DNA from: an uncultured Lachnospiraceae bacterium
GTDB lineage: Bacteria > Bacillota > Clostridia > Lachnospirales > Lachnospiraceae
DNA length: 38,570 nt
Reading direction: 5' to 3'
Assembly (NCBI GenBank): GCA_947630295.1
Contig: CANRGZ010000009.1
Location: 1 to 38,570 of the forward strand
The notes under the pieces were generated by a model that searched no databases, was not told the DNA's origin, and was given only the letters and a program-made list of their open reading frames with translations. Shown piece after piece: positions 2,709 through 38,096 of this stretch. A program made the translations under genes and the position numbers. Position 1 is the first letter of the stretch; each line of letters opens with the position of its first letter.

Positions 2709-2773
2709 AAAACGATTCCTGTCAAACGCTTCGGAAGAAACCGTACAGGAATGGGTGAGGGGGCTTGATATTG

Positions 2774-4090
2774 ATGAAAAGTGATTCTGCAAAAAAGATC
2801 CGGCTGTCCAAAGGCATCAAAGGTATATTAGTTTTCTTTTGTCTGGCTTTGATCGTCGGAAGCGTCGGCATGATTGCTTACAGCGCACAGGATACGGCAT
2901 CGGAGCTTCACTATGGCGATGCAGATCAAGATGGCGCAGTGACAGCCGATGACGCGCTGGCTGTTTTAAGACATGCGGCAAGATTGTCAACTATACAGGA
3001 AGCCCTGTCTGTTCGGCTGGCGGATATGGACGCAAGCGGAGATCTGGATGCGGCGGATGCACTGGAAATCCTGCGGACAGCGGCGAAGATGGTACCGGAG
3101 AGACCCTATGAGGAGACGGAAGCGACAGCGCCGGCTGAAACATCGGGCAATCCGGATGAAACGGTGGTGCCGGATGAGACAGCAGCGCCGGATGAGACAG
3201 ATGCACCGGAAACGCCCGGGGAAGGATCGGTAGTTTATATGACTTCCGATATTACGCCGGACGGATTGATGGCGGTCTACAATGCGCTGCAATGGTCGCC
3301 CACCGGAAAGGTAGCGGTCAAACTCTCTACGGGAGAACCGCCTGCCAGCAATTATCTGCGGCCGGAACTGATCAAAGATCTGGTGCAGTCATTAGAAGGC
3401 ACCATCGTAGAATGCAACACGGCCTATGGCGGTTCCAGAACGGAGACTGCCATGCATATGCAGGTGGCGAGGGATCACGGCTTTACCGAGATTGCAGACG
3501 TGGATATTCTGGATGCCGAAGGCTCCATGCAGCTGGATGTGGACGGCGGCAGTTATCTGGAGACCAATTATGTAGGCACCCATTTTGCGGACTATGATTC
3601 CTATGTGGTATTGTCGCACTTTAAGGGCCATGCCATGGCAGGCTTTGGCGGCGCCATTAAAAATATTTCCATCGGCCTTGGCTCCAAAGAAGGCAAATGT
3701 CTGATTCACACCGGCGGAAGGAGCCATACCAGCCCCTGGGGCGGAAATCAGACGGCGTTTACGGAGTCCATGGCGGAAGCCGGAAAATCCGTATCCGATG
3801 CCCTTGGACACGGGGAACGGATCATTTATATCAACGTGCTCAACAACATTTCCATTGACTGTGACTGCGACGGAAATCCCGCGGAACCGGATATTCATGA
3901 TATCGGAATCCTGGCTTCCACAGATCCGGTGGCCATCGATCAGGCCTCCATTGATCTGTGCTTTGCAGCGGAGGGCAGCGAGTCGCTGAAACGGCGCGTA
4001 GAGGATCAGAACGGTCTCCATACGCTGGAACACGGGGAAGAAATCGGCCTGGGCAGCCGGGAGTACAATTTGGTGAATATTGATGAGTGA
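2774..4090 (+). CDS. Secreted dockerin-DUF362 protein
   Basis: I choose ATG 2774 (438 residues); a TTG at 2765 is in frame but lies against the AGGGGG at 2758-2763. Residues 1-38 are a signal peptide or signal anchor. Residues 48-105 form a dockerin with loops DADQDGAVTADD and DMDASGDLDAAD. Residues 106-150 are an acidic Pro/Thr linker with repeated PDET units. Residues 152-438 match DUF362 (PF04015), including SHFKGHAMAGFGGAIKN and the C-terminal GILASTDPVAIDQ. DUF362 proteins are usually cytoplasmic and often carry ferredoxin-like 4Fe-4S motifs. No CxxCxxC cluster is visible here, only CDCD and one later Cys. A hairpin (2715-2722 with 2745-2752) precedes the gene. A dockerin-borne, exported DUF362 protein is unusual, and its function is unknown. 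Confidence 0.85.
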   Translation: MKSDSAKKIRLSKGIKGILVFFCLALIVGSVGMIAYSAQDTASELHYGDADQDGAVTADDALAVLRHAARLSTIQEALSVRLADMDASGDLDAADALEILRTAAKMVPERPYEETEATAPAETSGNPDETVVPDETAAPDETDAPETPGEGSVVYMTSDITPDGLMAVYNALQWSPTGKVAVKLSTGEPPASNYLRPELIKDLVQSLEGTIVECNTAYGGSRTETAMHMQVARDHGFTEIADVDILDAEGSMQLDVDGGSYLETNYVGTHFADYDSYVVLSHFKGHAMAGFGGAIKNISIGLGSKEGKCLIHTGGRSHTSPWGGNQTAFTESMAEAGKSVSDALGHGERIIYINVLNNISIDCDCDGNPAEPDIHDIGILASTDPVAIDQASIDLCFAAEGSESLKRRVEDQNGLHTLEHGEEIGLGSREYNLVNIDE

Positions 4091-23500: not shown

Positions 23501-24045
23501 GGAGTGCTTCCGCAAACGGTGTCAGCGTAACACTGCCGGCAGGCAGCTTCCCTGCAGAAGAAAGCTTAAGTCTGGCTGTAACGATCCTTGGCGCAAAGGA
23601 TTCTGCAGCGCAGTACACAGCCGCAAATGCAGCACTGAAAGGTGCAGGCATCGACGTTGACAAGCAGGTCATCACGCTTTACGATATGAAGGTATTGAAA
23701 GCGGACGGTGCGGAAATCACACCCACCGCAGAAGCGTCCATTACCCTGACGCCGCCTGCGGGATATACAGCGTCCAAGACATCCATCGTTCGTATGGCGG
23801 ATGTGAAGTCTATGGCAACCAGCGTTTCCGGTTCTTCTCTGGCATATCAGTCTGACAAACTGGGACAGTTTGCGGTTATGCAGCAGAAAACCAGCAGCGC
23901 CAGCGGCGACACCTCCAAGACAGGAACGTCTAAGGCAGGTCAGACGGGTGACGCGGCTTCCGTAGCGATTCCGTTTGTCCTTCTCGCAGCAGCTTTCTGT
24001 ACAATCGTAGTGATTCGCAGAAAAGAAGAGGCACTGGAAGACTAA
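20536..24045 (+). CDS. Large surface protein with two LamG-like modules and a C-terminal membrane anchor
   Basis: This 1169-residue secreted protein has a signal peptide (residues 1-32, AMPVSA). It contains two concanavalin-A/LamG-like modules with parallel landmarks. Module 1 (about 55-620) has PIMELDFEKGF, GVTIAYWVKVP, EWHYVVCVIQNDWVQFYVDGY and LDGVLMDDIKFF. Module 2 (about 626-940) has PVLQMNFEDAE, GVTISYWFRSVP, EWHFATAVIKNSGIYMYFDGK and YLDDVNFYDVAL. A further beta-rich domain covers about 975-1115. The C-terminus (QTGD, hydrophobic span, then RRKEEALED) resembles a sortase-type signal but lacks LPxTG. There is no dockerin. Such modules bind glycans or protein partners; the target is unknown. 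It has its own promoter and terminator. Confidence 0.8.
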   Translation: MKKMNRTKAAKAARSGITALLAVVMAMPVSALTAAVTAAVSPETAVVEAADVEVPDPIMELDFEKGFQGEAAKNELKPVGVTPRLMYEERKENGAYPVDSSTGKWIFEWTDNPAIEGSTEADYHYVTGVVGNQPTTYDDPEMGNVFRLDSTMEIAERYKDHSDKMDFSVPVYSAGFNDDGTPKDAEAYEKSIIQPELTAHSAVQIKNPFAGMNFTEDESHWKKDSTSLPNGPQWEKGVTIAYWVKVPEAREATEDDDKDDILNDSVLFTFENIQRTEDSTDPNGENVTYHVDDLVKHQAAENYKEDDPQYALGTRETVKAKDGTEYIVAKDYGPLVRLNPNYEGTAEKKIYFEVKEGDEHWSGSEKITITTDAGETKNLYPLGPNIYNAFKETDPAKGSSIRRGYVNGSMQIAASDAFHFMEDDYATETQPDGSFRALKGAKDLNPNTAKEGEFIELRNNNLFYFEGDKTVTSNPDEWHYVVCVIQNDWVQFYVDGYADSEDDYGYHGTAFNVENGKKYFNKGFGIRMPYQRGKAWSGVADWSADGTIAKSPANAAARTMLEWLSDEDTVLYLGNQGCAAQSTDQEIGTLDGVLMDDIKFFAEPLTEEQATVLFDQATKEKAGATDIPKPVLQMNFEDAEVGSIPSGLTGFSANDTTTGDKAVKAPTVVNEATFGKVLKLHENKSQKTSALQFTNPFAGKDLSGVTISYWFRSVPDKNGDIGEGVTVTFADSPKKLSHDKMQPDARETETRTGLWVNNSCDAMFMAGVDTTVNTTLKNHYQQSTKKNGNTDPKENGYDKEADELEDEWNARLASTSEWHFATAVIKNSGIYMYFDGKKLDNNLADPQGPTFYGPRFYDGYYHKYLDSFSSIRYGSENAGATPLMTFLTQEDTTAYFGMMYRQGSALTYRATVESYLDDVNFYDVALNDEQIQTLYTTAQADEKSKSAVAGIAVDTPDWQAGGAAEDPTGPAEENKEETNPGTINADGSWSASANGVSVTLPAGSFPAEESLSLAVTILGAKDSAAQYTAANAALKGAGIDVDKQVITLYDMKVLKADGAEITPTAEASITLTPPAGYTASKTSIVRMADVKSMATSVSGSSLAYQSDKLGQFAVMQQKTSSASGDTSKTGTSKAGQTGDAASVAIPFVLLAAAFCTIVVIRRKEEALED

Positions 24046-24147: not shown

Positions 24148-24180
24148 ATAGCAAAGATTTTTTTGAAAGGAATGTCGGAT

Positions 24181-27100
24181 ATGCATGCGGAGCAAAAAAA
24201 ACAGAAAATATCATCTGCCTGCCTGCAGCTGCTGATCATAGCACTGCTTGTCAGACTGCTGCTCAGCGGACTGATTAAAGGATTCAGTACCGATATCAAC
24301 TGCTTTACCGGTTGGGCAGATTCTCTGTTTTCGGATGGAATCAGAGGATTTTATACTTCCGGAGGTTTCTGTGATTATCCGCCCGGTTATCTGTATGTGC
24401 TTTGGCTGCTGGGAGGTCTGCGGAAGCTGTTTGGATTGACGGATTATTATGCGTTTACTTCGATGCTGCTCATCAAATTTCCTGCAGTACTGTGTGATAT
24501 GATTTCCGGCCTGTTGATTTATCGGTTTGGCAGAGAAAAGATCGGAGAGACCAATGCACTGATTTGTACGCTGCTTTATCTGTTTAATCCGGCGATTATC
24601 ATCAATTCGGCGGCATGGGGACAGGTAGACTCTATTTTTACCTTGTTTGCAGTCTTGACGATTTATTATATTTATAAAAAGAAAATGCCGTATGCGTATA
24701 TCGCGTTCTGTATCGGTTTTCTGATTAAGCCGCAGGTCGCATTTATCGCACCTGTTCTGCTTCTGGCCATTATAGAGCATGTATTTATGGATGGTTTCAC
24801 ATGGAATAAGTTTTTCAGAAACCTCTTTGCCGGACTGGGCTCCATTGCGGGACTGTTTTTGCTGATGCTGCCTTTTGGTATCGGTGATGTGCTTTCCCAG
24901 TATGTGAGTACGGTGACTTCCTATAAGTTTGCGTCGGTCAATGCGTATAACTTCTGGGCGATGCTGGGCATGAACTGGAAAGATCAGAACACAAAGGTTC
25001 TTGGGCTTCCGGCATTGTTCTGGGGTATGTTTTTTGTTGTGTGCGTGTTTGCATTTACGATATGGTTCTGGTGGAAGCGGAAGAATGACCGTTCAAAATA
25101 CTTTTTCATGGCGGCCTTTCTGATTACGGGCGTATTTACGCTGTCGGTGCGTATGCATGAGCGGTATATGTATCCGGCGCTGATCCTGCTGATTCTTTAT
25201 TATGTGGTCAATCCGCGGATTGAAACCATATGTCTGTACTTTGTGTTATCAGCGGTTCATTTTCTGAACGTTATACATGTGTTTGTCTGTTATGATCCGG
25301 CAACCTATAACTGGGATGATCCGTCCAGAGCAATCATCGGCGCTTTCATGTCGCTGGCGTATGCTTTCATGATATTCTGTTTTTTCCGCTTTTTGAAGCA
25401 GAAGGGATCAGGGAAAAAAATTGCGTTAAAGCAAATTTTTTCCCTGCGAAGCAAGGAAGCGGATTCCAAAGGCAAAAAACATCGGTTTACGTCCCGTCCC
25501 ATGGCAAGGATAGAAAAGAAGGACATTCTGATTATGCTGGTGATTACGCTGCTGTATTCTGCAGTCGCCCTGTTTCAGCTGGGAGATCTGCAGGCCCCGC
25601 AGTCGGGTTGGACCGCGAAAACGGCAAATGAGCAGTATGTCTTTACTTTTGATCAGCCGGTACGGATCCAGAAGATCTGGTACTATCTGGGCAATTATCA
25701 CAATCCCCACTTTGATTTTGAAGTGCAGGATGGGGATGGCGCATGGGTGAAGGTGCTGGACGATCAGGAATTTAAAAGCGTTTTCAACTGGTCGGATCAG
25801 ACATTTACGCAGGTTGTGGAAACCCGGGCCGTGCGTATGACATCCCTGTCAGAACAGGCTTCGATCTGGGAACTGACTTTTGTGGATGGAGATGGAAATT
25901 ATATTACGCCGTCAAATCCGGAAGTCTGTCCCGCCCTCTTTGACGAGACAGATCTGATTCCGGAACGGGAATCCAAACTAAACGGTACGTATTTTGATGA
26001 AATTTATCATGCCAGAACCGCATGGGAATATACCCAGGGCATTTACAGCTATGAGTGGACCCATCCGCCTCTTGGAAAGATATTCATCATGTTCGGCATT
26101 CTGATTTTCGGAATGGTGCCTTTCGGCTGGCGGATTGCCGGCACCGTTTTCGGAATCATTATGCTGCCCTGCATTTACGTATTTGCAAAAAAAATGTTTT
26201 CGAAACGCTGGATCGCGACCACCGCCATGCTGATGTTTGCGGCGGATTTCATGCATTTTACACAGACACGGATCGCAACCATCGACGTGTTTGTTACGCT
26301 GTTTATCATCCTGATGTATTATTATATGTATAAATACACGCAGATGAGCTATTATGACAGGAAGTTCAGCAAAGTGATGATTCCGCTGGGACTGTCCGGT
26401 ATGATGATGGGCTTTGCCATGGCAAGCAAGTGGACAGGCGTTTATGCGGCCTGCGGTCTGGCAGTGATCTTTTTCGCAGATTTGTGGCGCAGATACGGTG
26501 AATACCGGTACGCGAAAACAAAACCACAAGGGAGTACAGACGGTATTTCCCACAGCAGGGTGATCCGGGAATTTCCGCTGCGCACGAAACAGACGATTCT
26601 GCTCTGCTTTTTGTTTTTCATCTTTTTGCCGCTGCTCATTTATGTGCTTTCATATATTCCGTTTGTAAGCCGGGAAGGCCAGAGCCTGCTGCAAAAAGCG
26701 TACAAAAACGCGATTGATATGTACAATTATCATTCCAATCTTGTATCGGAGCATGCGTATTCCTCCAAATGGTATCAGTGGCCGCTGATGACACGGCCCA
26801 TGTGGTATTATTCCTACCATGTAAACGATACGATTTCGGAAGGCATCAGCGCCTTTGGAAATCCGCTGATCTGGTGGGCAGGCATTCCCGCATTTTTCTA
26901 CGTCTTATATCGGATGATCAAAAATCGCGACAGAAACGCAGGTTTTCTGGTGATCGGATATCTGGCGGAATATCTGCCCTGGATGTTTGTGGATCGGACC
27001 ACCTATATTTATCATTATTTCCCGTCGGTGCCGTTTGTGATTCTGATGCTCTGCTACAGTTTTCAGCAGTTTGTCAAAGACAATACCCGTCGGAAATATG

Positions 27101-27234
27101 CGGTATACGTCTATATCGCAGTGATGATTATACTGTTTGCAATGTTCTATCCGGTGCTTTCGGGATATCCGGTGGACAAAAACTATGTGTTTACCTGGCT
27201 GCGGTGGTTCAAATCCTGGACTTTAGTGACATAA
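24181..27234 (+). CDS. Fusion of two GT-C glycosyltransferases; C-terminal half is protein O-mannosyltransferase-like
   Basis: This is a 1017-residue polytopic membrane protein. ATG 24181 is chosen because AAAGGA (24166-24171) touches the alternative ATG 24172. The N-terminal half (about 1-405) is GT-C with TD38INCFTGWA and D65YPPGYLYVLW, a pattern of polyprenyl-phosphate-sugar-dependent GT87-type mannosyltransferases. After a basic linker (about 410-440) the C-terminal half (445-1017) matches PMT/GT39, with the catalytic loop FD606E607IYHARTAWEY and THPPLGK. Between its first span and that loop lies a beta-rich segment (about 470-580) resembling a discoidin fold. PMT enzymes attach a sugar to Ser/Thr of exported proteins. 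It is directly upstream of the cohesin genes, whose Thr/Pro linkers are plausible acceptors. The fused architecture and the target are inference. Confidence 0.85.
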   Translation: MHAEQKKQKISSACLQLLIIALLVRLLLSGLIKGFSTDINCFTGWADSLFSDGIRGFYTSGGFCDYPPGYLYVLWLLGGLRKLFGLTDYYAFTSMLLIKFPAVLCDMISGLLIYRFGREKIGETNALICTLLYLFNPAIIINSAAWGQVDSIFTLFAVLTIYYIYKKKMPYAYIAFCIGFLIKPQVAFIAPVLLLAIIEHVFMDGFTWNKFFRNLFAGLGSIAGLFLLMLPFGIGDVLSQYVSTVTSYKFASVNAYNFWAMLGMNWKDQNTKVLGLPALFWGMFFVVCVFAFTIWFWWKRKNDRSKYFFMAAFLITGVFTLSVRMHERYMYPALILLILYYVVNPRIETICLYFVLSAVHFLNVIHVFVCYDPATYNWDDPSRAIIGAFMSLAYAFMIFCFFRFLKQKGSGKKIALKQIFSLRSKEADSKGKKHRFTSRPMARIEKKDILIMLVITLLYSAVALFQLGDLQAPQSGWTAKTANEQYVFTFDQPVRIQKIWYYLGNYHNPHFDFEVQDGDGAWVKVLDDQEFKSVFNWSDQTFTQVVETRAVRMTSLSEQASIWELTFVDGDGNYITPSNPEVCPALFDETDLIPERESKLNGTYFDEIYHARTAWEYTQGIYSYEWTHPPLGKIFIMFGILIFGMVPFGWRIAGTVFGIIMLPCIYVFAKKMFSKRWIATTAMLMFAADFMHFTQTRIATIDVFVTLFIILMYYYMYKYTQMSYYDRKFSKVMIPLGLSGMMMGFAMASKWTGVYAACGLAVIFFADLWRRYGEYRYAKTKPQGSTDGISHSRVIREFPLRTKQTILLCFLFFIFLPLLIYVLSYIPFVSREGQSLLQKAYKNAIDMYNYHSNLVSEHAYSSKWYQWPLMTRPMWYYSYHVNDTISEGISAFGNPLIWWAGIPAFFYVLYRMIKNRDRNAGFLVIGYLAEYLPWMFVDRTTYIYHYFPSVPFVILMLCYSFQQFVKDNTRRKYAVYVYIAVMIILFAMFYPVLSGYPVDKNYVFTWLRWFKSWTLVT

Positions 27235-27381: not shown

Positions 27382-28134
27382 ATGAGACTGAAAAAGATCA
27401 TCACGATTACACTGATCGTATCGCTGCTTGCAACGCTGTTCAGTATGATCGCGTTTGCTGAGGGAGAAAAACCGAAGGTATATCTTGCGGACACTTCGGC
27501 TTATAAAGTCGAAAGAAACGCAACGGAAATCGTCGTGCCCATCTGCGTGGAGGGCGAGATCGACATGCAGTGTTTTGATATCACGGTAACCTATGATAAA
27601 TCCAGTCTGGCCCTTGTCCCGGATAAGGAAAAGACATTCATCGAAATGAAAGAGGATGAGGAATATTCATATTATGATATGAATACCGAAACAGACGGAA
27701 CCGTGGTTTTTGCCGGCGTGACGGTGGATGAGTCCATGAAGAGCAAAACCGGAAGGATTGGCCAGCTGACATTCACATCAAAGAAAAGGATCAGCAAGGA
27801 CGGAACAACAACCGAACTGGGACTTTCGGTGGCAGAACTGGGACTTGGAACGGAAGTTGCCGATATTGAGGTAAAGCCGGATGCGACGGTTACCATGAAC
27901 GTCAGTGAAGATCCGAATACGCCGGAACCGGTAAAAGCCGGTGATGTCAATCAGGACGGAAACATCGACGCAAGCGACGCGCTGCTGATTCTGAAGCATG
28001 CCGCCAGGATGGAAACCCTGGAGGGCGACGCTTTAAAGGCAGCGGATGTGAATACGGATACCTCCGTCAACTCCACCGATGCATTGGATGTTCTGAAATA
28101 TGCGGCGCATCTGATCGATCATTTTGGCAATTAG
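27382..28134 (+). CDS. Cohesin-dockerin adaptor protein
   Basis: This 250-residue secreted protein starts at ATG 27382 with AAAGGGA upstream. It has a signal peptide (1-26, MIAFA). Residues about 31-175 have the cohesin beta-sandwich pattern: VYLADTSAYKVERNATEIVVPICVEG, then CFDITVTYDKSSLAL, TVVFAGVTVDES, and GRIGQLTFTSKK. Residues 186-246 are a dockerin with loops DVNQDGNIDASD and DVNTDTSVNSTD. The second loop has T in place of the usual Gly. It has no membrane anchor. A protein with both a cohesin and a dockerin is an adaptor in cellulosome terms: it can bind one partner's dockerin and itself dock on another cohesin. It lies between the glycosyltransferase and the anchored cohesin. Confidence 0.85.
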   Translation: MRLKKIITITLIVSLLATLFSMIAFAEGEKPKVYLADTSAYKVERNATEIVVPICVEGEIDMQCFDITVTYDKSSLALVPDKEKTFIEMKEDEEYSYYDMNTETDGTVVFAGVTVDESMKSKTGRIGQLTFTSKKRISKDGTTTELGLSVAELGLGTEVADIEVKPDATVTMNVSEDPNTPEPVKAGDVNQDGNIDASDALLILKHAARMETLEGDALKAADVNTDTSVNSTDALDVLKYAAHLIDHFGN

Positions 28135-28192
28135 CACAAACATTTTTTGACAGAAAGGACACATATTTCCGGTAAATTGTGCAATTTTTAGG

Positions 28193-28221
28193 TTGACAAG
28201 GAAAGGTCTATTTGATAGACT
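28193..28221 (+). promoter_or_regulatory. Strong promoter TTGACA-N17-TAGACT with inverted repeat at the -10
   Basis: A perfect TTGACA (28193-28198) and TAGACT (28216-28221) are 17 bases apart. The inverted repeat GTCTAT-TTG-ATAGAC (28206-28220) covers the -10 region, a typical position for a repressor site. The start codon is 54 bases downstream. Confidence 0.75.
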
Positions 28222-28274
28222 ACACTTTGTAAACGCATTGCACTTTTTATAAAAAAAGAAAGGAAGAGATTAAA

Positions 28275-29000
28275 ATGAAAAAGTTATTAGCAATCGTTAT
28301 GGTTGCAGTCATGGTATTCTCCATGAGCGCTGTTGCTTTTGCTGAAGAAGATGCTGCAAGACCTTATACAGTATCTTACACAGCGCAGACAAACGAAGAT
28401 GGTTCCATTACGATCTCCGTTTATGCAAAGGGTAATGTACAGGCTTATGATGTAGGTATTTCCTACAAAGATACAGGCGCTACGGTAAAAGAATTTGCTA
28501 CATCCGCAGATTTCAAGAGTGCTGTATCTCCGCTCGACGTTGCGAACGATGTTAAAGATGAAAGTTATATTGTATTCACCGGCGCAGCGCTTAGCGATGC
28601 TGCTAAGGAATATGATGGAATCATCGGTTCTGCTACTTTCACAGATGTTACCGATGCCGCTAAGTTCCAGATTATTGCTGACACAGCGAAATCTGAGCAG
28701 TTTGCAGTAACAACTCCTGATAACCCTATTGATATTAAGCCGTATGAAGCTCCGACAGAGGCTCCGACTCCGGAACCTGCTGATGAGACTGAGGCTCCTG
28801 CTGGTGACGCAACTCCGGCTCCTGGTACTCCTGGTACCGATGCAACTCCGGCTCCTGCTGGTCCGACCACTGCTCCTACGAACACTGGTTCCGGCAATGC
28901 TGCAAAGACCGCTGATGTTGCTCCTGTAGCTGCAATGGTTACTCTGGTACTTATGGCTGGCGCTGTACTTGTTGTATTAAAGAAACGCGCTGCAGAATAA
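28275..29000 (+). CDS. Membrane-anchored cohesin protein with Pro/Thr linker
   Basis: This 241-residue protein has a signal peptide (1-23, AVAFA). It has one cohesin-like domain (about 31-147; ISVYAKGNVQAYDVGISYKD, then SYIVFTGAALSD and IIGSATFTDV) and a 50-residue Pro/Thr/Ala linker (157-208). A C-terminal span (217-235) is followed by KKRAAE. The sequence before the span, KTADVAP, resembles the KTGD-type sorting or anchor motif of clostridial surface proteins with TG changed to TA. A single cohesin on the membrane would hold one dockerin partner. Codons are strongly GCT/GGT/ACT-biased compared with the GC-ending neighbours, as expected for a highly expressed gene. It has its own strong promoter and terminator. 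The cohesin fold is divergent. Confidence 0.78.
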   Translation: MKKLLAIVMVAVMVFSMSAVAFAEEDAARPYTVSYTAQTNEDGSITISVYAKGNVQAYDVGISYKDTGATVKEFATSADFKSAVSPLDVANDVKDESYIVFTGAALSDAAKEYDGIIGSATFTDVTDAAKFQIIADTAKSEQFAVTTPDNPIDIKPYEAPTEAPTPEPADETEAPAGDATPAPGTPGTDATPAPAGPTTAPTNTGSGNAAKTADVAPVAAMVTLVLMAGAVLVVLKKRAAE

Positions 29001-29032
29001 TCCATAGCGATTGACTGAAAAAAGATTTTTCG

Positions 29033-29062
29033 GACCCCCGTATCTTACGGGGGTCTTTTTTT
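29033..29062 (+). terminator. Intrinsic terminator after the anchored cohesin gene
   Basis: GACCCCCGTA (29033-29042) pairs with TACGGGGGTC (29046-29055) across TCT, followed by seven T (29056-29062). Confidence 0.95.
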
Positions 29063-29098
29063 GTGCGGAATCATCCGGCGTATTCCCGAAAAAAGCCA

Positions 29099-29127
29099 TT
29101 GACAGACGGATGGTGCCTTGTTATCTT
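29099..29127 (+). promoter_or_regulatory. Promoter TTGACA-N17-TATCTT of the pectin-enzyme operon
   Basis: TTGACA (29099-29104) and TATCTT (29122-29127) are 17 bases apart, between the preceding terminator and ATG 29176. This is the only clear promoter I see before the six genes up to 38096. Confidence 0.65.
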
Positions 29128-29175
29128 TTTATTATAGAATTAAATTGGGGTATTCTATGTATGAGGAGGGGCAGC

Positions 29176-32100
29176 ATGAAAAAATTATTGATATGGGTTC
29201 TGGCATTGCTGCTGCCGGTCAATGCTTTTCTTATGGGCAGCGGTCTTTGCCTGAAAGAAGTGGAAGCGGCGGCCGACGATAGGCTGGAACTCTGGTACGA
29301 TGAATCTGCAAAAGCAGATTTCTATGAGATTTACGCGAAAAAGTATAAGTGGCTTGGGGGAAAGGGCGACGGTTTTCTGGAATTTGGCCGCTCCGACCCG
29401 CAGAATTATGTGGACGGGAAAAACCATTCCAATGATTCTGCCTACAGTGAAAGCGGCAGAGTTACCAAGGCAGTAGAGGACGGCGTTGCATGGGCCAAAC
29501 ACGCGCTTCCCATCGGAAACGGGCACATGGGAGCCATGATATTCGGTTATACGGACACAGAACGGGTACAGATGAATGAAGACACGCTCTGGACCGGCGG
29601 CCCGGGCTGTGTCTCAGTGCTGGATGCGTCCAATAACGCAGATGCCTATGGGAATGTCAATCTGGAAGATCCGGCGGCATTAATGGGTCAGCTGGTAGAC
29701 AACGCATTTGACAATTATTACGAGAGTCTGAAAACCGGGAAAATGCCATCCACTGACAAGGATAACGCGTCGCCGTATCAGAACGGCCTGACGCCCAATT
29801 CCAAAGAACAGGAAGGCTCCTACCAGAACTTTGTAGAGATGTACCTGGATTTCGGGATCAAAGAAGAAGAGACGGAAAATTATCGCCGCAGCCTGCATCT
29901 GGATACGGCGGTCTCGGAAGTGAAATATCGTCATGAGGGAGTCGATTACAGCAGAACCATGTTTGCCAGCTATCCGGATGATGTGCTGGTGTACCGGGTG
30001 GAAGCATCCGGCACGGGGAATGTTTCGTTTCGCCTGCATCCGGAAATCCCGAATCGGGAAATCTACACCGGCAGATATAACAGTACGGCGGGGGACGGCG
30101 CAGCGAAGTATGGAAAAGAAGGAAATGTAGTGGCAGAGGGCGATACCATTTCGGTCACCGGTTCTCTGAAACACAACGGGATGAAATTTGCGGCGCAGTT
30201 TAAGGTCATTTCCGAAGGCGGAACTATGAGGGCGGACAATGCACCGGCAGCGGAGATGGATGCCAACGGAAGCATCACCGTAAACGGTGCGGACAGCGCC
30301 TGGATTGTGATTTCCATGAAAACAGACTATGTCTGTGATTTTGACAGAAACTATACCAGCGGCGAAAGCCTGCCGGAACTGACAGCGGCGCTGGAAACAA
30401 AGGTAGAAGCGGCGGCAGCAAAGGGCTATGCGCAGCTTTACGATGCCCACGAAGCGGATTATACGAAGCTGTTCGGCCGGGTACAGCTGGATATCGGCGG
30501 GGAAAACCCGGATATGGCCACGGATGATTTGCTGCAGCAATATAAAAAGAATAACGGAAAAAACAGCGCAGACGCCAGATATCTGGAAACTCTGTATTAT
30601 CAGTACGGAAGGTATCTGCTGATTGCGTCGTCAAGGGACAATTCGCTTCCGGCCAACCTGCAGGGGGTGTGGAATGATACGGATGCACCTGCCTGGTCGT
30701 CGGATTATCACACCAATATCAATGTGCAGATGAATTACTGGCTCGCGGAGCAGGCCAATCTGGCAGAGACGGCCACCTGTCTGGTGGATTATGCCAATGC
30801 GCTGCGCAAACCCGGAAGGCTTTCCCTGGCGAAGCTCTACGGCATCGGTTACCGACCGGATTCGGAGGATATTGATCTGGAAACAGAAGACGGATTTATC
30901 TTTTTCTGCAATACCACGCCTCTGGGCTTTACGGGCAATATCAAGTCCAATGCTTCGTTTACGGCCACAGCGACGGCGTTTCTGGCGCAGAATCTGTATG
31001 ATTACTATGCTTTTACCAAAGATCTGGATTATCTGCGCAGCGATATCTATCCTTTCCTGCGGGAGAGCTGCATTACCTATCTGCAGACGCTGCAGCCGGG
31101 CAGAGGGGAAAATGATAAAGACCGGCTGTATATTGTACCGTCCTGGTCATCGGAACAGACCCGTTCCCCCTGGACGGTAGGCACATATTTTGACCAGCAG
31201 CTGGTATGGCAGCTGTTCCACGATACGCTGCAGGCCATGGAAGATCTGGGCATTTCGCCTGCGGCAGACGCCGGTACGGACGACAGCTACATGCAGGATG
31301 ATGCCATATTGATGGCGCGGATACAGGACGCCATCGGCCGGCTGGATCCGGTGGCTGTCGGTGCGGACGGACAGATTAAGGAATGGCAGCAGGAGGAACG
31401 CTACAACAAGACGGCAAACGGCGCAGAAATCGGTGAATCCAATCACCGGCACATTTCCCAGCTGATGGCGCTGTATCCGGGAAATTATATCAGCTGCGCA
31501 GACAATAAAGAGGAACTGATTCAGGCCGCACAGGTGGTGCTGAAAGAACGAACCGACGAATCTACAGGATGGGGACTGGCATACCGGCTCAATCTGCAGG
31601 CCAGGACCGGGGACGGCGATCATGCGCATCAGCTGGTCAATGCTCTGCTGACGACGGCTACATATCCGAATTTGTTCGATACCCATGCGCCTTTCCAGAT
31701 TGACGGTAATTTCGGCGCAACCGCAGGCATGACCGAAATGCTGCTGCAGAGTCAGGGGAAAGCGATAGAGATTCTGCCGGCACTTCCGTCGGCATGGAAG
31801 GACGGTTCTTATGAAGGACTGGTGGCAAGAGGCAATTTTGAAGTCAGCTGCAGCTGGAAGAACGGGACCGCATATCGGGTAAAGATCCGGTCCAACGCGG
31901 GAGAACCGCTGAAACTGTCCGGCATTGATGCAGAGACCATAAAAGACGCAGACGGTGTGCCTGTGGCGTATACCATGGAAGATGGCTGCATTTGCCTGGA
32001 TACGGAAAAAGGCGGTATCTATACGATGCAGACGGCAGATGCGCCGGAGGAGACGCAGACACCGGATCCCGGCAAGGATATTCTGCCCGGCGATGTGGAT

Positions 32101-32298
32101 GGAAATCGGGATGTGAATGCCGGGGATGCATTACTGGTACTGCAGTATGCGGCCCATCTGATTCCATTGGAAAAAGAACAGAAGCTTGCCGCTGATGTTA
32201 CGGGAGATGAGGACATCACGGCCGCGGATGCACTGATGATTTTAAAATATGCCGCGAAGCTGATCAATGCATTTGTTCAGCAGGAGGATGGTACTTGA
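29176..32298 (+). CDS. GH95 family alpha-L-fucosidase/galactosidase with C-terminal dockerin
   Basis: This 1040-residue secreted enzyme starts at ATG 29176, preceded by GGAGGGG; earlier in-frame codons fall in the terminator and promoter. It has a signal peptide (1-35, EVEAAA). The GH95 catalytic region (about 85-950) shows PIGNGHMGAMIFG (from 112), MNEDTLWTGGP (133-143), WNDTDAPAWSSDYHTNIN (499-516) and IDGNFGATAGMTEM. The HTNIN asparagines correspond to those used by the B. bifidum GH95 fucosidase. E660 in PSWSSEQ is a candidate general acid. The dockerin (970-1034) has loops DVDGNRDVNAGD and DVTGDEDITAAD. GH95 enzymes cleave alpha-1,2-fucose, or L-galactose as in rhamnogalacturonan-II and xyloglucan; the pectin context favours a plant substrate. 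First gene of the operon. Confidence 0.92.
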   Translation: MKKLLIWVLALLLPVNAFLMGSGLCLKEVEAAADDRLELWYDESAKADFYEIYAKKYKWLGGKGDGFLEFGRSDPQNYVDGKNHSNDSAYSESGRVTKAVEDGVAWAKHALPIGNGHMGAMIFGYTDTERVQMNEDTLWTGGPGCVSVLDASNNADAYGNVNLEDPAALMGQLVDNAFDNYYESLKTGKMPSTDKDNASPYQNGLTPNSKEQEGSYQNFVEMYLDFGIKEEETENYRRSLHLDTAVSEVKYRHEGVDYSRTMFASYPDDVLVYRVEASGTGNVSFRLHPEIPNREIYTGRYNSTAGDGAAKYGKEGNVVAEGDTISVTGSLKHNGMKFAAQFKVISEGGTMRADNAPAAEMDANGSITVNGADSAWIVISMKTDYVCDFDRNYTSGESLPELTAALETKVEAAAAKGYAQLYDAHEADYTKLFGRVQLDIGGENPDMATDDLLQQYKKNNGKNSADARYLETLYYQYGRYLLIASSRDNSLPANLQGVWNDTDAPAWSSDYHTNINVQMNYWLAEQANLAETATCLVDYANALRKPGRLSLAKLYGIGYRPDSEDIDLETEDGFIFFCNTTPLGFTGNIKSNASFTATATAFLAQNLYDYYAFTKDLDYLRSDIYPFLRESCITYLQTLQPGRGENDKDRLYIVPSWSSEQTRSPWTVGTYFDQQLVWQLFHDTLQAMEDLGISPAADAGTDDSYMQDDAILMARIQDAIGRLDPVAVGADGQIKEWQQEERYNKTANGAEIGESNHRHISQLMALYPGNYISCADNKEELIQAAQVVLKERTDESTGWGLAYRLNLQARTGDGDHAHQLVNALLTTATYPNLFDTHAPFQIDGNFGATAGMTEMLLQSQGKAIEILPALPSAWKDGSYEGLVARGNFEVSCSWKNGTAYRVKIRSNAGEPLKLSGIDAETIKDADGVPVAYTMEDGCICLDTEKGGIYTMQTADAPEETQTPDPGKDILPGDVDGNRDVNAGDALLVLQYAAHLIPLEKEQKLAADVTGDEDITAADALMILKYAAKLINAFVQQEDGT

Positions 32299-32370
32299 AC
32301 GGCATTTTCAGGCGATTATGCAGACGCATCGGTAATTCTAATCAAAAATTGAGCAGCGGAGGAAAATGTA

Positions 32371-32793
32371 ATGAAAGCAGAAGAAAAAGAAACAATCACA
32401 TTGGAAGAACAGGAAGGAACGGTGATTACACCGGAACCGGACGTACAGGCAGAACCGATTGAGAATACGGCGGAAGACGACAGCATGGTGCAGGCAGGTG
32501 CGGAATCTGCGCAGGCAGAAGCGGATGCAGCAGACGAAGTCCCGGAGAAGGATGAAACGACACAGTCGGAGCCTGTGACGGAAGCGGAAGCATCTGCAGC
32601 AGAAGATGCGGGAGAACCCGGGGAAGACAGTGAAGTCTGGCTGCAGGACGACGAAGATACGGAAATCGAAGAAGAAAAGAAAACCGGCAAAGGCCGTTTG
32701 TCCGCAGTCTTTGGTGTGATCGGCGGATTGATTCTTGCAGCAGCAGCGGCGGTATCTGTTCTGCTGTGGCGGAAAAAGAATCCGAAACAGTAG
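32371..32793 (+). CDS. Highly acidic single-span membrane protein
   Basis: This 140-residue protein has GGAGG before ATG 32371. It has no N-terminal signal peptide. Residues 1-105 are very acidic and low complexity, rich in Glu, Asp, Ala and Thr, and probably disordered. KKTGKGR (103-109) precedes one hydrophobic span (about 110-132), which ends in WRKKNPKQ. Basic residues on both sides make the topology uncertain. It could be a tail-anchored protein with its acidic part in the cytoplasm, or part of a surface complex. I recognise no family. It sits between the GH95 enzyme and an anchored cohesin whose own tail is also acidic, suggesting a supporting role in the same system. Confidence 0.6.
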   Translation: MKAEEKETITLEEQEGTVITPEPDVQAEPIENTAEDDSMVQAGAESAQAEADAADEVPEKDETTQSEPVTEAEASAAEDAGEPGEDSEVWLQDDEDTEIEEEKKTGKGRLSAVFGVIGGLILAAAAAVSVLLWRKKNPKQ

Positions 32794-32881
32794 AAGGTAA
32801 TGGATGCTGCATTGCAAGTGACAGAATATAAGCTGTTTTTGAACAGCAAAAGCATAAGGCAGGCAGAGAAAGGGATTTCAT

Positions 32882-33643
32882 ATGAAAAAAATAGTTATGC
32901 TCTTATTTACAGCGGCGGCGCTGGTATTCTTCTGTTTTTCCGCCTGTGCGGAAGAAACGAAAATCAGCTACCATATTGAATACGAAGGCGATCAGGCGAC
33001 GGTTTATTTTCAGTCGGAATCTTTAAGCGCCTTTGATTTCGGATTTATTTACGATCCGGCGGAGGTGACGATCGAGGATATCGTTTACTCGGATTACTAT
33101 CAGCAGCTGGTACAGACCAGCGGTAATTCCGTGATGGCCGTGGAAAATCCTGCGGCGCAGGATGATGAAGGCAATACCTATGTGGTTGTCACCGGAATAG
33201 CGATGAACGGGTCAAGCGGAGAACCACTCCAATTTTCTTCGACGCAGGAGATTGCGCATATTGTGATTTCCGGTATCAGCGAAGGGGATATCATCGGTGT
33301 TGTTTCGGAGACGGCGTCTGTTAAGGATGTCAGAAATGCAAACAAGATCGCGGCAGTAGATTTGAGCAAACAGCAGGAAGTAACAGACAGCGATATCTTT
33401 GCGGGTGCACAGGAAGAACCGGAGGACAACGCAGGCGGAGACAATTACGGCGAGGCGGCAGACAACAGTCCGGACGCAGAGAATGGTGCGGGCAATGATA
33501 CATGGATTTATGTGCTTGTCATCGCCGCAGTAATCATCGTTGTGGCCGTATTGATTGTAATTTCGAAGAAGGGACATGCCGCAATCGAGGAATCCGAGCC
33601 GGAAACGCCCGAAGAGGAGCTATCAGAGACGCAGGATGAATAA
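32882..33643 (+). CDS. Second membrane-anchored cohesin protein
   Basis: This 253-residue protein has AAAGGG seven bases before ATG 32882. It has a signal peptide (1-23); SAC near its end is a possible but weak lipobox. The cohesin-like domain (about 27-165) has ISYHIEYEGDQATVYFQSESLSAFDFGFIYDPAEVTI, TYVVVTGIAMNG and IAHIVISGI. An acidic linker (172-202) leads to a membrane span (about 205-226) with SKKG after it, then a 25-residue acidic tail (EESEPETPEEELSE) predicted on the cytoplasmic side. This differs from the other anchored cohesin, which ends right after its span. It lies within the pectin-enzyme operon, 21 bases before the pectate lyase gene. It probably holds one dockerin enzyme at the membrane. 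Confidence 0.75.
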   Translation: MKKIVMLLFTAAALVFFCFSACAEETKISYHIEYEGDQATVYFQSESLSAFDFGFIYDPAEVTIEDIVYSDYYQQLVQTSGNSVMAVENPAAQDDEGNTYVVVTGIAMNGSSGEPLQFSSTQEIAHIVISGISEGDIIGVVSETASVKDVRNANKIAAVDLSKQQEVTDSDIFAGAQEEPEDNAGGDNYGEAADNSPDAENGAGNDTWIYVLVIAAVIIVVAVLIVISKKGHAAIEESEPETPEEELSETQDE

Positions 33644-33664
33644 ATCAGCAGGAAAGGGAAAGAT

Positions 33665-35533
33665 ATGTTAAAACGGGGAAAAAGGGGTTTTACAGCGATG
33701 CTGCTGGCCGGCGTGCTGATACTGTCTTTTGGGTGGACGGTACAGGCAGCGCAGATCCAGGGCAGCCTGAATCAGGCATTGAAATTTGGCGACGTTGACA
33801 ATAACGGAACCGTGGATGCGGCAGACGTGCTGGAACTGCTGAAGGTACTGACCGGAAATTATCAGGCGCAGCCCTTTCATCAGAATGCAGGGGATTTGAA
33901 CAAGGACGGCAGGCTTTCTGTGCGGGATGCCCTGCTGCTGCTGCAGAATATTGCGAAGCAGCGGGATGACAAGCTGGGATATAAACCGTATTTGCAGGAA
34001 ATCCGGTATGCAGTGCCGGCTGTTTTTGCCGATGACAGCATGGTTTTGAAAGAAAGCGCCCTTGCCTTTCCCGGCGCGGACGGCTGGGGCAAATATACCA
34101 GCGGCGGCCGGGGCGGCCAGGTCATTGCGGTGACAAGCCTGGCGGACAGCGGACCGGGTACCCTGCGGGATGCGCTGGAAACTGCCGGAAAACGGGTGAT
34201 CGTATTTCAGGTTTCCGGTGTGATTTATCTGAAAAGCAATCTGGCTGTCAAAAACGGGGATGTGACCGTTGCGGGCCAGACAGCCCCCGGAGACGGCATT
34301 ACACTGGCTAATTACGGAATGAGCATTACTGCGGAAAATGTCATTGTACGTTATCTGTCCATACGGCCCGGCGATCAGACGGGGGATGAACTGGACGGTA
34401 TCGATATCTGCGGTGCGAAAAATGTCATTGTGGATCACTGCAGCGTTTCCTTTGCCACCGATGAGGTACTGTCGGCCAGACCGAATGGAGACGGCGTAAA
34501 CTATGACGAAGTGAGCGACAAGGTTTCTGTGCAGTGGTGTATGATTGCTGAAAGCATTACGCAGTCCCCAAATTCATCGAAAGGCCGTCACGGGATGGGT
34601 TCGCTGATTCGCGGCGCCCAGGGGGCGGAAATCACCTATCACCATAATCTGTACGTCAGCCACAGCTCCCGATTGCCGATGATGGGCAATTATATGGCGA
34701 AAGAAGCAGACAACGGCAATTTCAAGGCAGAATTTATTAATAATACGGTATTTAACTGGAACGGATCCGCATCCGGCAAATGCTCGGATGCAGACCCGGA
34801 GGGACTGGCTGTACATGTTTCAAGCTTTAATTATATCGGCAATTACTACCGGCCCGGCAGTGTTTCCGTGAAAGGCGACAGTTATGTCTTTTCGGAAGGC
34901 GGCATCGGAAACCATATGTATATGGAAGACAATATCATGGAGGACAGGCCGGATGCGTCACAGAAAGATCTGCTGATGTTTACCAATGATGTGCTGGCAA
35001 CCAGTGAAAATCCCTATTACTGGGATGAAAAAGCAAATGCGCCGAAGGAACAGGGTCTGGTGATCGATCAGGAAGATTATTTCCTGACGGAGCGCTTTGC
35101 GGATTCTGAAATGGCACAGATTGACGATGCCCGGGAAGCCAACCACGCGGTGCTGCAGCTGGCGGGAAATTCGCTGAGCAGAGACTGCTTTGATACGGCA
35201 CTGCTGCGTGATTATGAAGCCGGCAGCGGCAAGCTGATCAATCAGACCTTTGAAGCTGCAGGCTGGTACAGAGGAACGCCGGAAAACAACAGAGGAACCG
35301 GCTATTACGAGTGGATGCAGGGCAAATACCCGGATCGGGCCAGCTACCCTGCGGAAATCGATACGGATCAGGACGGTATGAGCGATGCATGGGAAACGGC
35401 TGTGGGCCTGAATCCGGCAGTTCCCGACGGTGCCGGGGCCTTCAGGGGGTCGGCATATACGAATCTGGATGTATATTTACAGTTTCTTGTGGAGCAGCCG
35501 GAAGCGGCGATTCTGCACGGAGAAGTAAAGTAA
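33665..35533 (+). CDS. Dockerin-pectate lyase (PL1-like)
   Basis: This 622-residue secreted enzyme has a signal peptide (1-29, TVQAA) and an N-terminal dockerin (41-100) with loops DVDNNGTVDAAD and DLNKDGRLSVRD. The catalytic right-handed beta-helix runs from about residue 128 (ALAFPGADGWGKYTSGGRGG), with GTLRDAL, VIVFQVSGVIYL, TVAGQTAPGDGITL, VD257HCSVSFATDE and HHNLYVSHSSR336LPMMG, where Arg336 is the likely catalytic base of the PL1 superfamily. It cleaves de-esterified homogalacturonan by calcium-dependent beta-elimination. A C-terminal DTDQDGMSDAWE segment is a calcium-binding TSP3-like motif frequent in such lyases, not a second dockerin. It is placed beside esterases that would expose its substrate. 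Confidence 0.9.
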   Translation: MLKRGKRGFTAMLLAGVLILSFGWTVQAAQIQGSLNQALKFGDVDNNGTVDAADVLELLKVLTGNYQAQPFHQNAGDLNKDGRLSVRDALLLLQNIAKQRDDKLGYKPYLQEIRYAVPAVFADDSMVLKESALAFPGADGWGKYTSGGRGGQVIAVTSLADSGPGTLRDALETAGKRVIVFQVSGVIYLKSNLAVKNGDVTVAGQTAPGDGITLANYGMSITAENVIVRYLSIRPGDQTGDELDGIDICGAKNVIVDHCSVSFATDEVLSARPNGDGVNYDEVSDKVSVQWCMIAESITQSPNSSKGRHGMGSLIRGAQGAEITYHHNLYVSHSSRLPMMGNYMAKEADNGNFKAEFINNTVFNWNGSASGKCSDADPEGLAVHVSSFNYIGNYYRPGSVSVKGDSYVFSEGGIGNHMYMEDNIMEDRPDASQKDLLMFTNDVLATSENPYYWDEKANAPKEQGLVIDQEDYFLTERFADSEMAQIDDAREANHAVLQLAGNSLSRDCFDTALLRDYEAGSGKLINQTFEAAGWYRGTPENNRGTGYYEWMQGKYPDRASYPAEIDTDQDGMSDAWETAVGLNPAVPDGAGAFRGSAYTNLDVYLQFLVEQPEAAILHGEVK

Positions 35534-35561
35534 GTGATTTGGAGTAAAGAGGAGAAAAGAC

Positions 35562-36578
35562 ATGAGAAATAAGGTTTGCCGTGCGGCGTTTGTTTGCTGT
35601 ATCCTGCTGGTTTTGCTGTGTCTGCCAGGTATGACGGCAGCAGCTGCGGATGCGGACGCAGTGGCCGGAGATCTGGATGGAAATGGCCGTGTGACCCTGC
35701 GGGATGTGCTGGTCGTACTGAAAGCAGCCGCAAAAATGGAGACGCTGGAGGGAGAAAAACAAGCCGCTGCGGATGTAAACGGAAACGGAAGCGTGGATGC
35801 CAAAGATGCGCTTTTGCTCTTCAAAAAAGCGGTAGGGAAGCTTTATTATCTGCCGGGCGAAAAAATTGAAGCCTCGGGACAGATTTACATTGCGGGAGAT
35901 TCCATTGCTTCTAAGCATGACGAGGATCCGACCTATCAGCGGCAGCTGGTGGGATGGGGCGTCGTGCTGGGGGATCTGTTTGATGCGTCCGTAAACGTAC
36001 ACAATGAAGCCCGTTCCGGAGCCAGTGCAAAAAGCTATCTGCAAACTACAAATTATCCGGCTTTTATCAATCAGCTGGCAGCGGGGGATTATTTCCTGAT
36101 CTCCTTTGGGCACAATGATGAGAAGGTCTCGGATCCCGGCCGGTATACCGATCCGGAGGGGGATTCTGCTACGCCGGAATCTTACAAGTGGTATCTGAAG
36201 AAATATTATATAGAACCGGCAGTACGGGCAGGGGCGTATCCGGTATTGCTGTCATCGGTGGTCCGTTGTACCTTTGATATGGAGGGTGTACTGATGGCAC
36301 AGAGCCATGCGTCCTATGCCGCAGCTATGGCGGAACTGGCAGAGGAGTGCCGGGCAGAAGGACTGCAGGTGGGTTACATCGATCTGCAGAAGCTGACCGG
36401 AGATTATTACCGTACTGTGGGGCAGACGGAGGCGGAAAGCCTCCATGCATTTGACGCAGAAAAGCTGGATACGACCCATTACTGCGAAAAGGGCGCCAGG
36501 CTGGCTGCGCAGATCATAACGGAAGAAATGCAGCGGCAGGAATATGATATATGCAGATTCCTGAAGACGGTGCAGTAA
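35562..36578 (+). CDS. Dockerin-CE12 esterase (rhamnogalacturonan acetylesterase type)
   Basis: This 338-residue secreted SGNH hydrolase has AGAGGAG before ATG 35562. It has a signal peptide (1-29) and an N-terminal dockerin (36-95) with loops DLDGNGRVTLRD and DVNGNGSVDAKD. The catalytic domain (108-338) has block I GDS114I, a Gly in block II (ARSGASA), block III G183HND186, and block V D303TTH306. This is the full SGNH set of CE12. The family removes acetyl groups from rhamnogalacturonan-I or other pectin acetyl esters. It works with the lyase and methylesterase encoded beside it. The stop codon is closely followed by leader hairpin element copy C. Confidence 0.9.
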   Translation: MRNKVCRAAFVCCILLVLLCLPGMTAAAADADAVAGDLDGNGRVTLRDVLVVLKAAAKMETLEGEKQAAADVNGNGSVDAKDALLLFKKAVGKLYYLPGEKIEASGQIYIAGDSIASKHDEDPTYQRQLVGWGVVLGDLFDASVNVHNEARSGASAKSYLQTTNYPAFINQLAAGDYFLISFGHNDEKVSDPGRYTDPEGDSATPESYKWYLKKYYIEPAVRAGAYPVLLSSVVRCTFDMEGVLMAQSHASYAAAMAELAEECRAEGLQVGYIDLQKLTGDYYRTVGQTEAESLHAFDAEKLDTTHYCEKGARLAAQIITEEMQRQEYDICRFLKTVQ

Positions 36579-36579
36579 A

Positions 36580-36609
36580 CAGGCGCGCCTTTTAAGGGCG
36601 CGTGTGCCG
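36580..36609 (+). repeat. Leader hairpin element, copy C
   Basis: CGCGCC (36584-36589) pairs with GGCGCG (36597-36602) across TTTTAAG, then GTGTGCCG, the 3' end shared with copies A (776-806) and B (10227-10255). It begins right after the CE12 stop and ends 24 bases before the CE8 start, with GAGAGG between. Confidence 0.55.
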
Positions 36610-36632
36610 CAACCTGAGAGGACGAAAAGACG

Positions 36633-38096
36633 ATGCGAAACATTTACGGAAAGAAAATATCTGCTGTGATCATCCTGTGTATCTGCCTGTGTGTTCTGCT
36701 GCCGATGCACGCTTTGGCAGCGGAAAATGCATGGGAAGACAAGGTGGTTCTGTCCTCCCGGGGCGATGTGACGCAGGATGGGAAAATTTCTCTGCGGGAC
36801 GTGCTGCTGGTGCTTAAAAGTCTGGCAAAGCTGCAGCCGTTGGACACAGCGGAAGCGCAGTACCGCGGGGATGCGGATCATTCCGGCAGGGTGACGATAG
36901 AGGATGCCGAAATGCTGATGGGCGCTGCGCTGCACGACAGGAATTTCGGTTATGTATTTACAGAACCGCTGGAGCGGACCTTCATTGTGGACAGCGCATG
37001 CCTTGTGCCGGAAGAATCTTATTGTTATAACAGCCTGCAGGACGTGGTAAATCAGCTGAATGCCGATCCGCCGGAAAGTGAAGACGAGCGGGTGACCATA
37101 CTGTTTGCGCCGGGGGTATACCGGGAGCATGCGGAGCTGAAAGCGCCCTATGTGACCTTTCAGGCGCTGAATCCGGAAAATGAGGTGCCGGCCAACATTA
37201 CTTTTTATTACGGCAACGGATTTCGTTATGAATCTCTGCAGCAGGAAGAGGCAGACGGCAATAATGGCGCATCGTTCATTATTGCTGCATCGGCCCATGA
37301 TTTTCATGCCCGGGACATGATGTTTGAAAACTCCTATAATATTTACATGACAAAGGAAGAGTACAGCGATTACTGTGCTTATCCCCTCAATAGTCAGTCC
37401 TTAAGCGTCCGGGAAGATATGGACAATCTGCTGAGCAGCAAGTATCAGACCCAGGGACTGGCGCTGCGGGTGGATGCGGACCGCGCCCGTTTTGACCATT
37501 GCCGAATCATCGGCAGACAGGACACGCTTCTGATGAATGGGAATGGAAACCGGGTTTATTATGAGGATTGTTATATCGAAGGAACCGTGGATTTTATTTA
37601 CGGGAACGGCACGGCGGTTTTTGAAAGCTGCCAGATCAACGCGCCTTACCATTCCGGACACATTACGGCGGCGTCTACGCCGGAAACGCAAAAGTTCGGC
37701 TTCCTGTTTAAAGAATGTACATTTACCAGGGAACAGGTGGCGCAGAAGGCGGCACCGGCGGCAAATTCCTATAGCTTGGGCAGGCCCTGGCGGGATTATG
37801 CCATGGTGGTGTACTGGAACTGTAAAATGGACGGGCATATCACCACGGGCAATGAGCGCTGGATGAATATGGGCGGCGGACTGCCGCTGGAAGATCCTGC
37901 CTGCGCCCAGCGGGAGACCTTGCGTTTCTTTGAGGCAGGCAGCATGGACCTGGAGGGCAATCCTCTGGATTTGAAAGCCATCAAACCCGATTATGAACGG
38001 ATTTTGCAGCAGGAAGATCTGCAGCCCGGCGGCGAATATGACGCGGCGGCCTGGCTGGCCGGGGACGACGGCTGGAATCCGGGCGGATATCCGTAA
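36633..38096 (+). CDS. Dockerin-pectin methylesterase (CE8)
   Basis: This 487-residue secreted enzyme has a signal peptide (1-30, HALAA) and an N-terminal dockerin (43-100) with loops DVTQDGKISLRD and DADHSGRVTIED. The CE8 beta-helix runs from about 108 to 445. Its signatures are RQ296D297TLL, the GTVD320FIYGNG motif with the nucleophile Asp320, and LGR384PWRDYA. It removes methyl esters from homogalacturonan, producing the substrate of the pectate lyase two genes upstream. It is the last gene of the operon, before a strong terminator at 38119. The second calcium loop is less canonical (DADHSG). Confidence 0.93.
   Translation: MRNIYGKKISAVIILCICLCVLLPMHALAAENAWEDKVVLSSRGDVTQDGKISLRDVLLVLKSLAKLQPLDTAEAQYRGDADHSGRVTIEDAEMLMGAALHDRNFGYVFTEPLERTFIVDSACLVPEESYCYNSLQDVVNQLNADPPESEDERVTILFAPGVYREHAELKAPYVTFQALNPENEVPANITFYYGNGFRYESLQQEEADGNNGASFIIAASAHDFHARDMMFENSYNIYMTKEEYSDYCAYPLNSQSLSVREDMDNLLSSKYQTQGLALRVDADRARFDHCRIIGRQDTLLMNGNGNRVYYEDCYIEGTVDFIYGNGTAVFESCQINAPYHSGHITAASTPETQKFGFLFKECTFTREQVAQKAAPAANSYSLGRPWRDYAMVVYWNCKMDGHITTGNERWMNMGGGLPLEDPACAQRETLRFFEAGSMDLEGNPLDLKAIKPDYERILQQEDLQPGGEYDAAAWLAGDDGWNPGGYP

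Follow-up and report, generated by a model that had tools for sequence, protein, structure and literature searches.

A compact locus of cohesin and dockerin genes occupies positions 27382–38096 of contig C9 in the genome of an uncultured Lachnospiraceae gut bacterium. It comprises three intact cohesin-type proteins, one of which also carries a dockerin, and four dockerin-bearing enzymes, all of them located where the earlier note on this DNA had placed them; every feature of the locus described below lies on the + strand. Our preferred reading, to which we assign a probability of roughly 0.68, is that the locus serves to dock enzymes at the cell surface in connection with pectin breakdown, as a member of the class with many dockerins and few cohesins. 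The window, 38,570 nucleotides long, is the entire contig, and the region past 38570 is therefore unreadable. The genome (G000; 1.92 Mb in 121 contigs) is 97% complete, and genome-wide statements rest on profile searches of the assembled contigs. The locus is above chance: its gene order is shared by congeners, its core recurs in another genus, and the ratio of nonsynonymous to synonymous substitution rates (dN/dS) is below one for the intact genes compared.

Adaptor and anchor proteins

P1 (27382–28134; 250 residues) is a secreted cohesin–dockerin adaptor, in which the cohesin (PF00963, 26.3 bits against a curated cut-off of 24.1) and the dockerin (Dockerin_1, PF00404, 47.1 bits) both score above their cut-offs. 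Orthologues are present in two congeners (G001 and G002) and, with 41% identity, in a genome of a different genus (G207).

In both P2 (28275–29000; 241 residues) and P5 (32882–33643; 253 residues), a signal-like N-terminus is followed by one domain of approximately 135 residues, then by a linker and by a hydrophobic span at the C-terminus. The domain is a cohesin by its predicted fold. AlphaFold2 models of moderate confidence (mean pLDDT, the predicted local distance difference test, of 67.6 for P2 and 70.2 for P5) were compared with solved structures, and the cohesins proposed by the earlier note found solved cohesins as their best match. In Foldseek searches of the Protein Data Bank (PDB), cohesins rank first for both proteins (probability 1.00), and the top match of both is the ScaC cohesin of Ruminococcus flavefaciens (5lxv; E of 2.8e-4 for P5 and 5e-4 for P2). 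The best VIA Z-scores, again to cohesins, are 8.9 for P2 and 7.9 for P5. These structural scores are moderate, and because some non-cohesin sandwiches (alpha-hemolysin, integrin and similar chains) reach a Z-score near 7, ranking below the cohesins in the VIA lists, the Z-score alone was not accepted as proof. With P2 or P5 as a single query, phmmer returned nothing useful among solved structures, and profiles were needed: a profile of the whole group, P1 included, matched nine solved cohesins ahead of all else. A membrane protein of another genus (G183), retrieved with a profile of the P2/P5 group, has a sub-threshold PF00963 match (20.2 bits, E 7e-4). Moreover, two 991-residue proteins of the same genome have a domain of this type with a dockerin on either side. 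From the models and this context, P2 and P5 are very probably true cohesins.

The two anchors appear to be attached differently. The C-terminus of P2 reads KTADVAP, followed by a hydrophobic stretch and KKRAAE, and orthologues in the two congeners and in G207 keep a tail of this type. The genome encodes six sortases, and matches to curated sorting-signal models are weak (GVDTG_CTERM, 17.9 bits against a cut-off of 29). The tail resembles a sorting signal more than a plain membrane span, and P2 is probably attached to the wall by sortase. P5, which is 59–65% identical to its congener orthologues, is probably a plain membrane anchor, because a membrane helix is followed by an acidic tail. The C-terminal spans that had been proposed for P2 and P5 are thus present as hydrophobic segments, albeit sortase-like in P2. 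The description of the locus as membrane-tethered probably holds for P5; extended to all three proteins it was rejected for P1, which has no anchor, and is doubtful for P2, given its sorting-like tail.

Dockerin enzymes and a lost anchor

Each of the four enzymes has its catalytic Pfam domain together with a Dockerin_1 match above cut-off, and solved relatives agree with the families that had been proposed from the sequence. The GH95 enzyme (29176–32298; PF22124, 425.6 bits) has a C-terminal dockerin (PF00404, 45 bits) and solved relatives that include the GH95 fucosidase 2eab; its open reading frame (ORF) opens at 29011, and the likelier start is near 29176. The other three carry N-terminal dockerins. 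They are a PL1-type pectate lyase (33665–35533; Pectate_lyase_4, PF00544, 31.4 bits; PF00404, 36.5 bits; solved pectate lyase 9buj, E 1.3e-39), a CE12-type GDSL esterase (35562–36578; PF00657, 36 bits; PF00404, 45.4 bits; solved rhamnogalacturonan acetylesterase 1deo, E 8e-9) and a CE8 pectinesterase (36633–38096; PF01095, 111.1 bits; PF00404, 25 bits; solved pectinesterase 3uw0, E 6.8e-21).

In the dockerins of the lyase, the CE12-type esterase and the CE8 enzyme, one or more calcium loops contain a hydrophobic-Arg-Asp motif, a feature that is also found in the lyase and CE8 dockerins of G207; most other dockerins have Ala-x-Asp. These two motif classes hint at two specificities and at nothing further, as partners are not assignable from them.

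A fourth single-cohesin membrane anchor persists as a remnant (32299–32793), as revealed by DNA alignment with the intact genes of both congeners, which lie between GH95 and P5 and encode 291 and 294 residues. In the window, a deletion of approximately 385 bp has removed sequence that includes the signal peptide and the greater part of the cohesin, and there is an in-frame TGA. The leftover tail forms a 140-residue ORF (32371–32793) that is absent from the earlier gene list, and a profile match extends across one TGA at 32302–32403 (E 0.049).

A promoter-like site ahead of P2 (28193–28221; 10 of 12 positions, with TG) is a pattern match and not evidence of function. A terminator-like hairpin 3' of P2 (29032–29056), likewise a pattern match only, has an 11-pair stem followed by a T-run and precedes the likelier start of the GH95 gene. 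The genes from GH95 to CE8 may form a second transcription unit.

Cohesins and dockerins across the genome

The genome contains 37 dockerins detected with PF00404. PF00963 detects one cohesin and home-made profiles detect five, always one per protein: P1, P2, P5 and two proteins with a leucine-rich repeat (LRR)–dockerin–cohesin–dockerin arrangement, on contigs C7 and C57. Thus, 37 dockerins are set against 5 cohesins, with P1 as a cohesin–dockerin adaptor, which is the pattern of few-cohesin, many-dockerin systems. Searches with PF00963 and with two home-made profiles, at E values of up to 10, did not find the multi-cohesin scaffoldin that marks a classical cellulosome in the genome as assembled, nor a clear one in the two congeners at the same limit. 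The absence of such a scaffold from view, which the earlier note could state for the window, is therefore no longer merely local. In particular, neither the window nor the genome as assembled yielded a counterpart of the R. flavefaciens ScaA or ScaB, which stand between adaptor and anchor. Dockerins number 54 and 45 in the congeners, against five and seven cohesins, and the additional cohesins there are single again, inside LRR or LamG proteins with dockerins. The profile search does detect multi-cohesin proteins in further genera of the family, G169 among them.

The two 991-residue proteins (L032:3–2978 on C57; L038:2565–5540 on C7) comprise LRRs, an internal dockerin, a cohesin-like domain and a C-terminal dockerin, and similar two-dockerin proteins are present in both congeners (L048, L051). 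The G169 protein (L066:3953–8602; 1549 residues) has three Pfam cohesins together with Big_2 and LRR repeats. In G001, a 489-residue dockerin protein is encoded between CTP synthase and CE8 (L047:3624–5093), and it may hold two divergent cohesin-like domains that escaped every profile.

Conservation in relatives

The two congeners are uncultured Lachnospiraceae metagenome-assembled genomes (MAGs) whose isolate names start with 'Lapin' (L054, L055), which we read as rabbit. Both have the same gene order at the locus; in G001, P1 lies at the end of a separate contig. In G207, a core of the locus is retained in the same order, with orthologues of P1 (41% identity) and P2 (37%), a dockerin pectate lyase (50%), a dockerin CE8 (46%), an O-mannosyltransferase-like protein (52%) and a LamG–dockerin protein. 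That genome has 29 dockerins and two cohesins by profile A9, both at this locus beside the lyase and CE8. G183 has two loci at which a single-cohesin membrane protein and a cohesin–dockerin adaptor adjoin each other, and a dockerin pectate lyase lies next to one of these pairs.

At E 1e-5, profile A9 matches 5 of 334 genera in a sample of the family, and three genomes of other families match weakly in a sample of the class. Absences in the family survey are approximate, because PF00963 gave one match when the G000 genome was searched singly and none in the family search.

The anchors, the adaptor and the intact enzymes compared are under purifying selection, with dN/dS of 0.21–0.69 for the anchors and adaptor (0.55–0.69 for P2) and 0.09–0.19 for the enzymes.

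An O-mannosyltransferase-like protein (24163–27234) adjoins the cohesin genes in the window and in G002 and lies near them in G207; it might glycosylate Thr/Pro-rich linkers. Elsewhere in G183 (L063:12270–14520), visual inspection suggests a cohesin-like domain in each of two adjacent proteins; both have a KTAD/RTAD sortase-like tail, and a FIVAR domain is present in one.

Proposed mechanism and alternative readings

We infer that the local cohesins bind the local dockerins at the cell surface, with pectin as the substrate, and that chains can assemble. P2, probably through sortase and the wall, and P5, through its membrane helix, would each display one cohesin outside the cell. The soluble adaptor P1 would take one dockerin protein with its cohesin, and its own dockerin would fit into an anchor or a further adaptor. 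Once secreted, the pectate lyase, CE12, CE8 and GH95 enzymes would be held close to the cell, each alone or within a short chain, and would thereby deacetylate, demethylate and cleave their substrate beside the uptake machinery. The LRR–dockerin–cohesin–dockerin proteins from other loci could lengthen or branch these chains.

Several observations weigh against this scheme. PF00963 matches neither P5 nor P2, and their AlphaFold2 models were built on small alignments (5 and 8 sequences). Without the P1-type rows, the group profile has a single PDB match (a cohesin, E 0.11), and hhalign gives a weak link between the P1 profile and the P2/P5 profile; sequence alone was therefore judged insufficient, and the cohesin assignment rests on predicted folds and context. 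The genome is a fragmented MAG of 121 contigs, and a scaffold gene may have been lost from the assembly. For the GH95 enzyme, a role in pectin breakdown is an assumption, since its family is active on fucosides in general, and this member may act on other fucosides. Finally, only approximately 10 of approximately 35 dockerin proteins appear to be pectin- or side-chain-directed, and most of the cargo is of other kinds.

This last point favours the alternative that survives best, although we consider it doubtful: a general surface-display system with mixed cargo (LRR and LamG adhesins, peptidases and inhibitors), to which the pectin enzymes are mere neighbours. The cargo includes pectate lyases (C2, C91 and two on C23) and CE12-like esterases (C31, C34) at other loci, together with LamG, LRR, transglutaminase, C39 peptidase, M60 peptidase, amidase, chagasin-like inhibitor and DUF362 proteins. 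No dockerin cellulases (GH5, GH9, GH48) and no dockerin GH13 amylases were found among the dockerin proteins scanned, a subset of the dockerin ORFs. Linkage of the lyase and CE8 to the cohesins is, however, conserved in another genus, and the adaptor and anchor of G183 also stand beside a dockerin pectate lyase. The 'pectinosome' of the earlier note is overstated in so far as the system is not exclusively directed at pectin. General display and pectin-linked docking are compatible, and both can be true.

Further dockerin and surface proteins lie in the window and elsewhere. Two more dockerin proteins in the window have a cyclophilin-like domain (1423–2199) and a DUF362 domain (2765–4090). Dockerin proteins on C8 (L036:2569–3648) and C88 (L042:2854–3642) have weak chagasin-like peptidase-inhibitor matches, and the former continues, as judged by eye, into serpin-like sequence. 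A LamG surface protein in the window (20536–24045) has a sortase-like QTGD tail, and its homologues (L032:3158–6607; L051:4502–8647) end in dockerin or dockerin–cohesin–dockerin modules, which suggests an exchange of anchoring modules.

A more specific and still more tentative proposal is that valency is inverted. Here, cohesins would always be single, and linkers with two dockerins and one cohesin would replace multi-cohesin scaffolds: since the LRR linkers carry two dockerins and one cohesin, they would join two anchors or branch chains. Separate anchors would read the two dockerin classes, with hydrophobic-Arg-Asp in the N-terminal dockerins of the PL and CE enzymes and Ala-x-Asp in most others.

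It is unlikely that the β-sandwich of P2, P5 and the lost fourth anchor, though cohesin-like, does not bind dockerins and serves instead as a surface adhesin or sugar-binding domain, with dockerins held only by P1 and the LRR–cohesin proteins. The missing Pfam matches, the weakness of the profile links with P1 and with solved cohesins, the other β-sandwiches in the VIA lists and the fast evolution of P2 are in keeping with such a role; against it, cohesins top both Foldseek searches, other proteins have the P2/P5 domain type between dockerins, and a single-domain anchor beside a cohesin–dockerin adaptor recurs in other genera. Least likely is a multi-cohesin scaffoldin that is missing or broken in the assembly and that the small anchors only tether, like R. 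flavefaciens ScaE: repetitive scaffoldin genes assemble badly, the genome is in 121 contigs, the LRR–cohesin gene on C57 runs off the contig start, multi-cohesin proteins occur in other genera of the family and the 489-residue congener protein may hold two cohesin-like domains, but searches at E up to 10 found no clear scaffold in the three genomes of the genus, and profile A9 found none in G207, which is 97% complete in about 50 contigs.

Comparison with known systems

The design differs from classical cellulosomes, as had been suggested, in that no multi-cohesin scaffold was found, but few-cohesin designs have precedents. The Hungate1000 paper names a many-dockerin, few-cohesin class that includes R. 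albus and R. bromii, and proposes a lone cohesin as the anchor for isolated enzymes (PMC6118326). A literature search, largely without subscription papers, returned no use of 'pectinosome' and no description of this locus. What appears to be new is the conserved anchor–adaptor–pectinase locus in Lachnospiraceae, together with the two-dockerin adaptors.

The locus bears on an open puzzle, the role of dozens of dockerins in bacteria such as R. albus that have no multi-cohesin scaffold: here, the few cohesins adjoin, in conserved order, enzymes that they may hold. With two detected cohesins in one relative, the full set of cohesin–dockerin pairs is of a size that can be tested. In a 2024 screen of RefSeq, a multi-cohesin protein was a requirement, and its authors noted that hidden Markov models fail to recognise divergent cohesins (PMC11557425); such a locus would therefore escape that screen. 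This suggests that systems of this type go undetected in genome screens that demand a multi-cohesin protein or depend on the Pfam cohesin model, and these systems may be relevant to pectin use in the guts of herbivores and other hosts.

In Clostridium thermocellum, pectinolytic lyases are part of a cellulase-rich complex on a multi-cohesin scaffold. The likeness to the present locus lies in these cellulosomal lyases, of families PL1 and PL9 (PMC4319962). In R. flavefaciens, the ScaC cohesin–dockerin adaptor is comparable to P1, and ScaE, a single-cohesin sortase anchor, to P2 in layout; in contrast to the arrangement found here, multi-cohesin ScaA and ScaB lie between adaptor and anchor (PMC4081043). 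The R. bromii amylosome shares the use of few small scaffoldins, five in number and two of them with sortase signals, and the presence of a cohesin and a dockerin in one protein (Amy4); it differs in its starch enzymes, in the two cohesins of Sca5 and in that its binding was shown by enzyme-linked immunosorbent assay, whereas the present system is known from sequence and predicted folds (PMC5814915). R. albus, in which Dassa et al. (2014) described a lone cohesin–dockerin protein and dozens of dockerins, shares the abundance of dockerins, an adaptor resembling P1 and a proposed surface anchoring of isolated enzymes (PMC4081043, PMC6118326). However, R. albus has one cohesin only and is cellulose-directed, whereas here additional single-cohesin anchors of the wall and membrane stand beside pectin enzymes.

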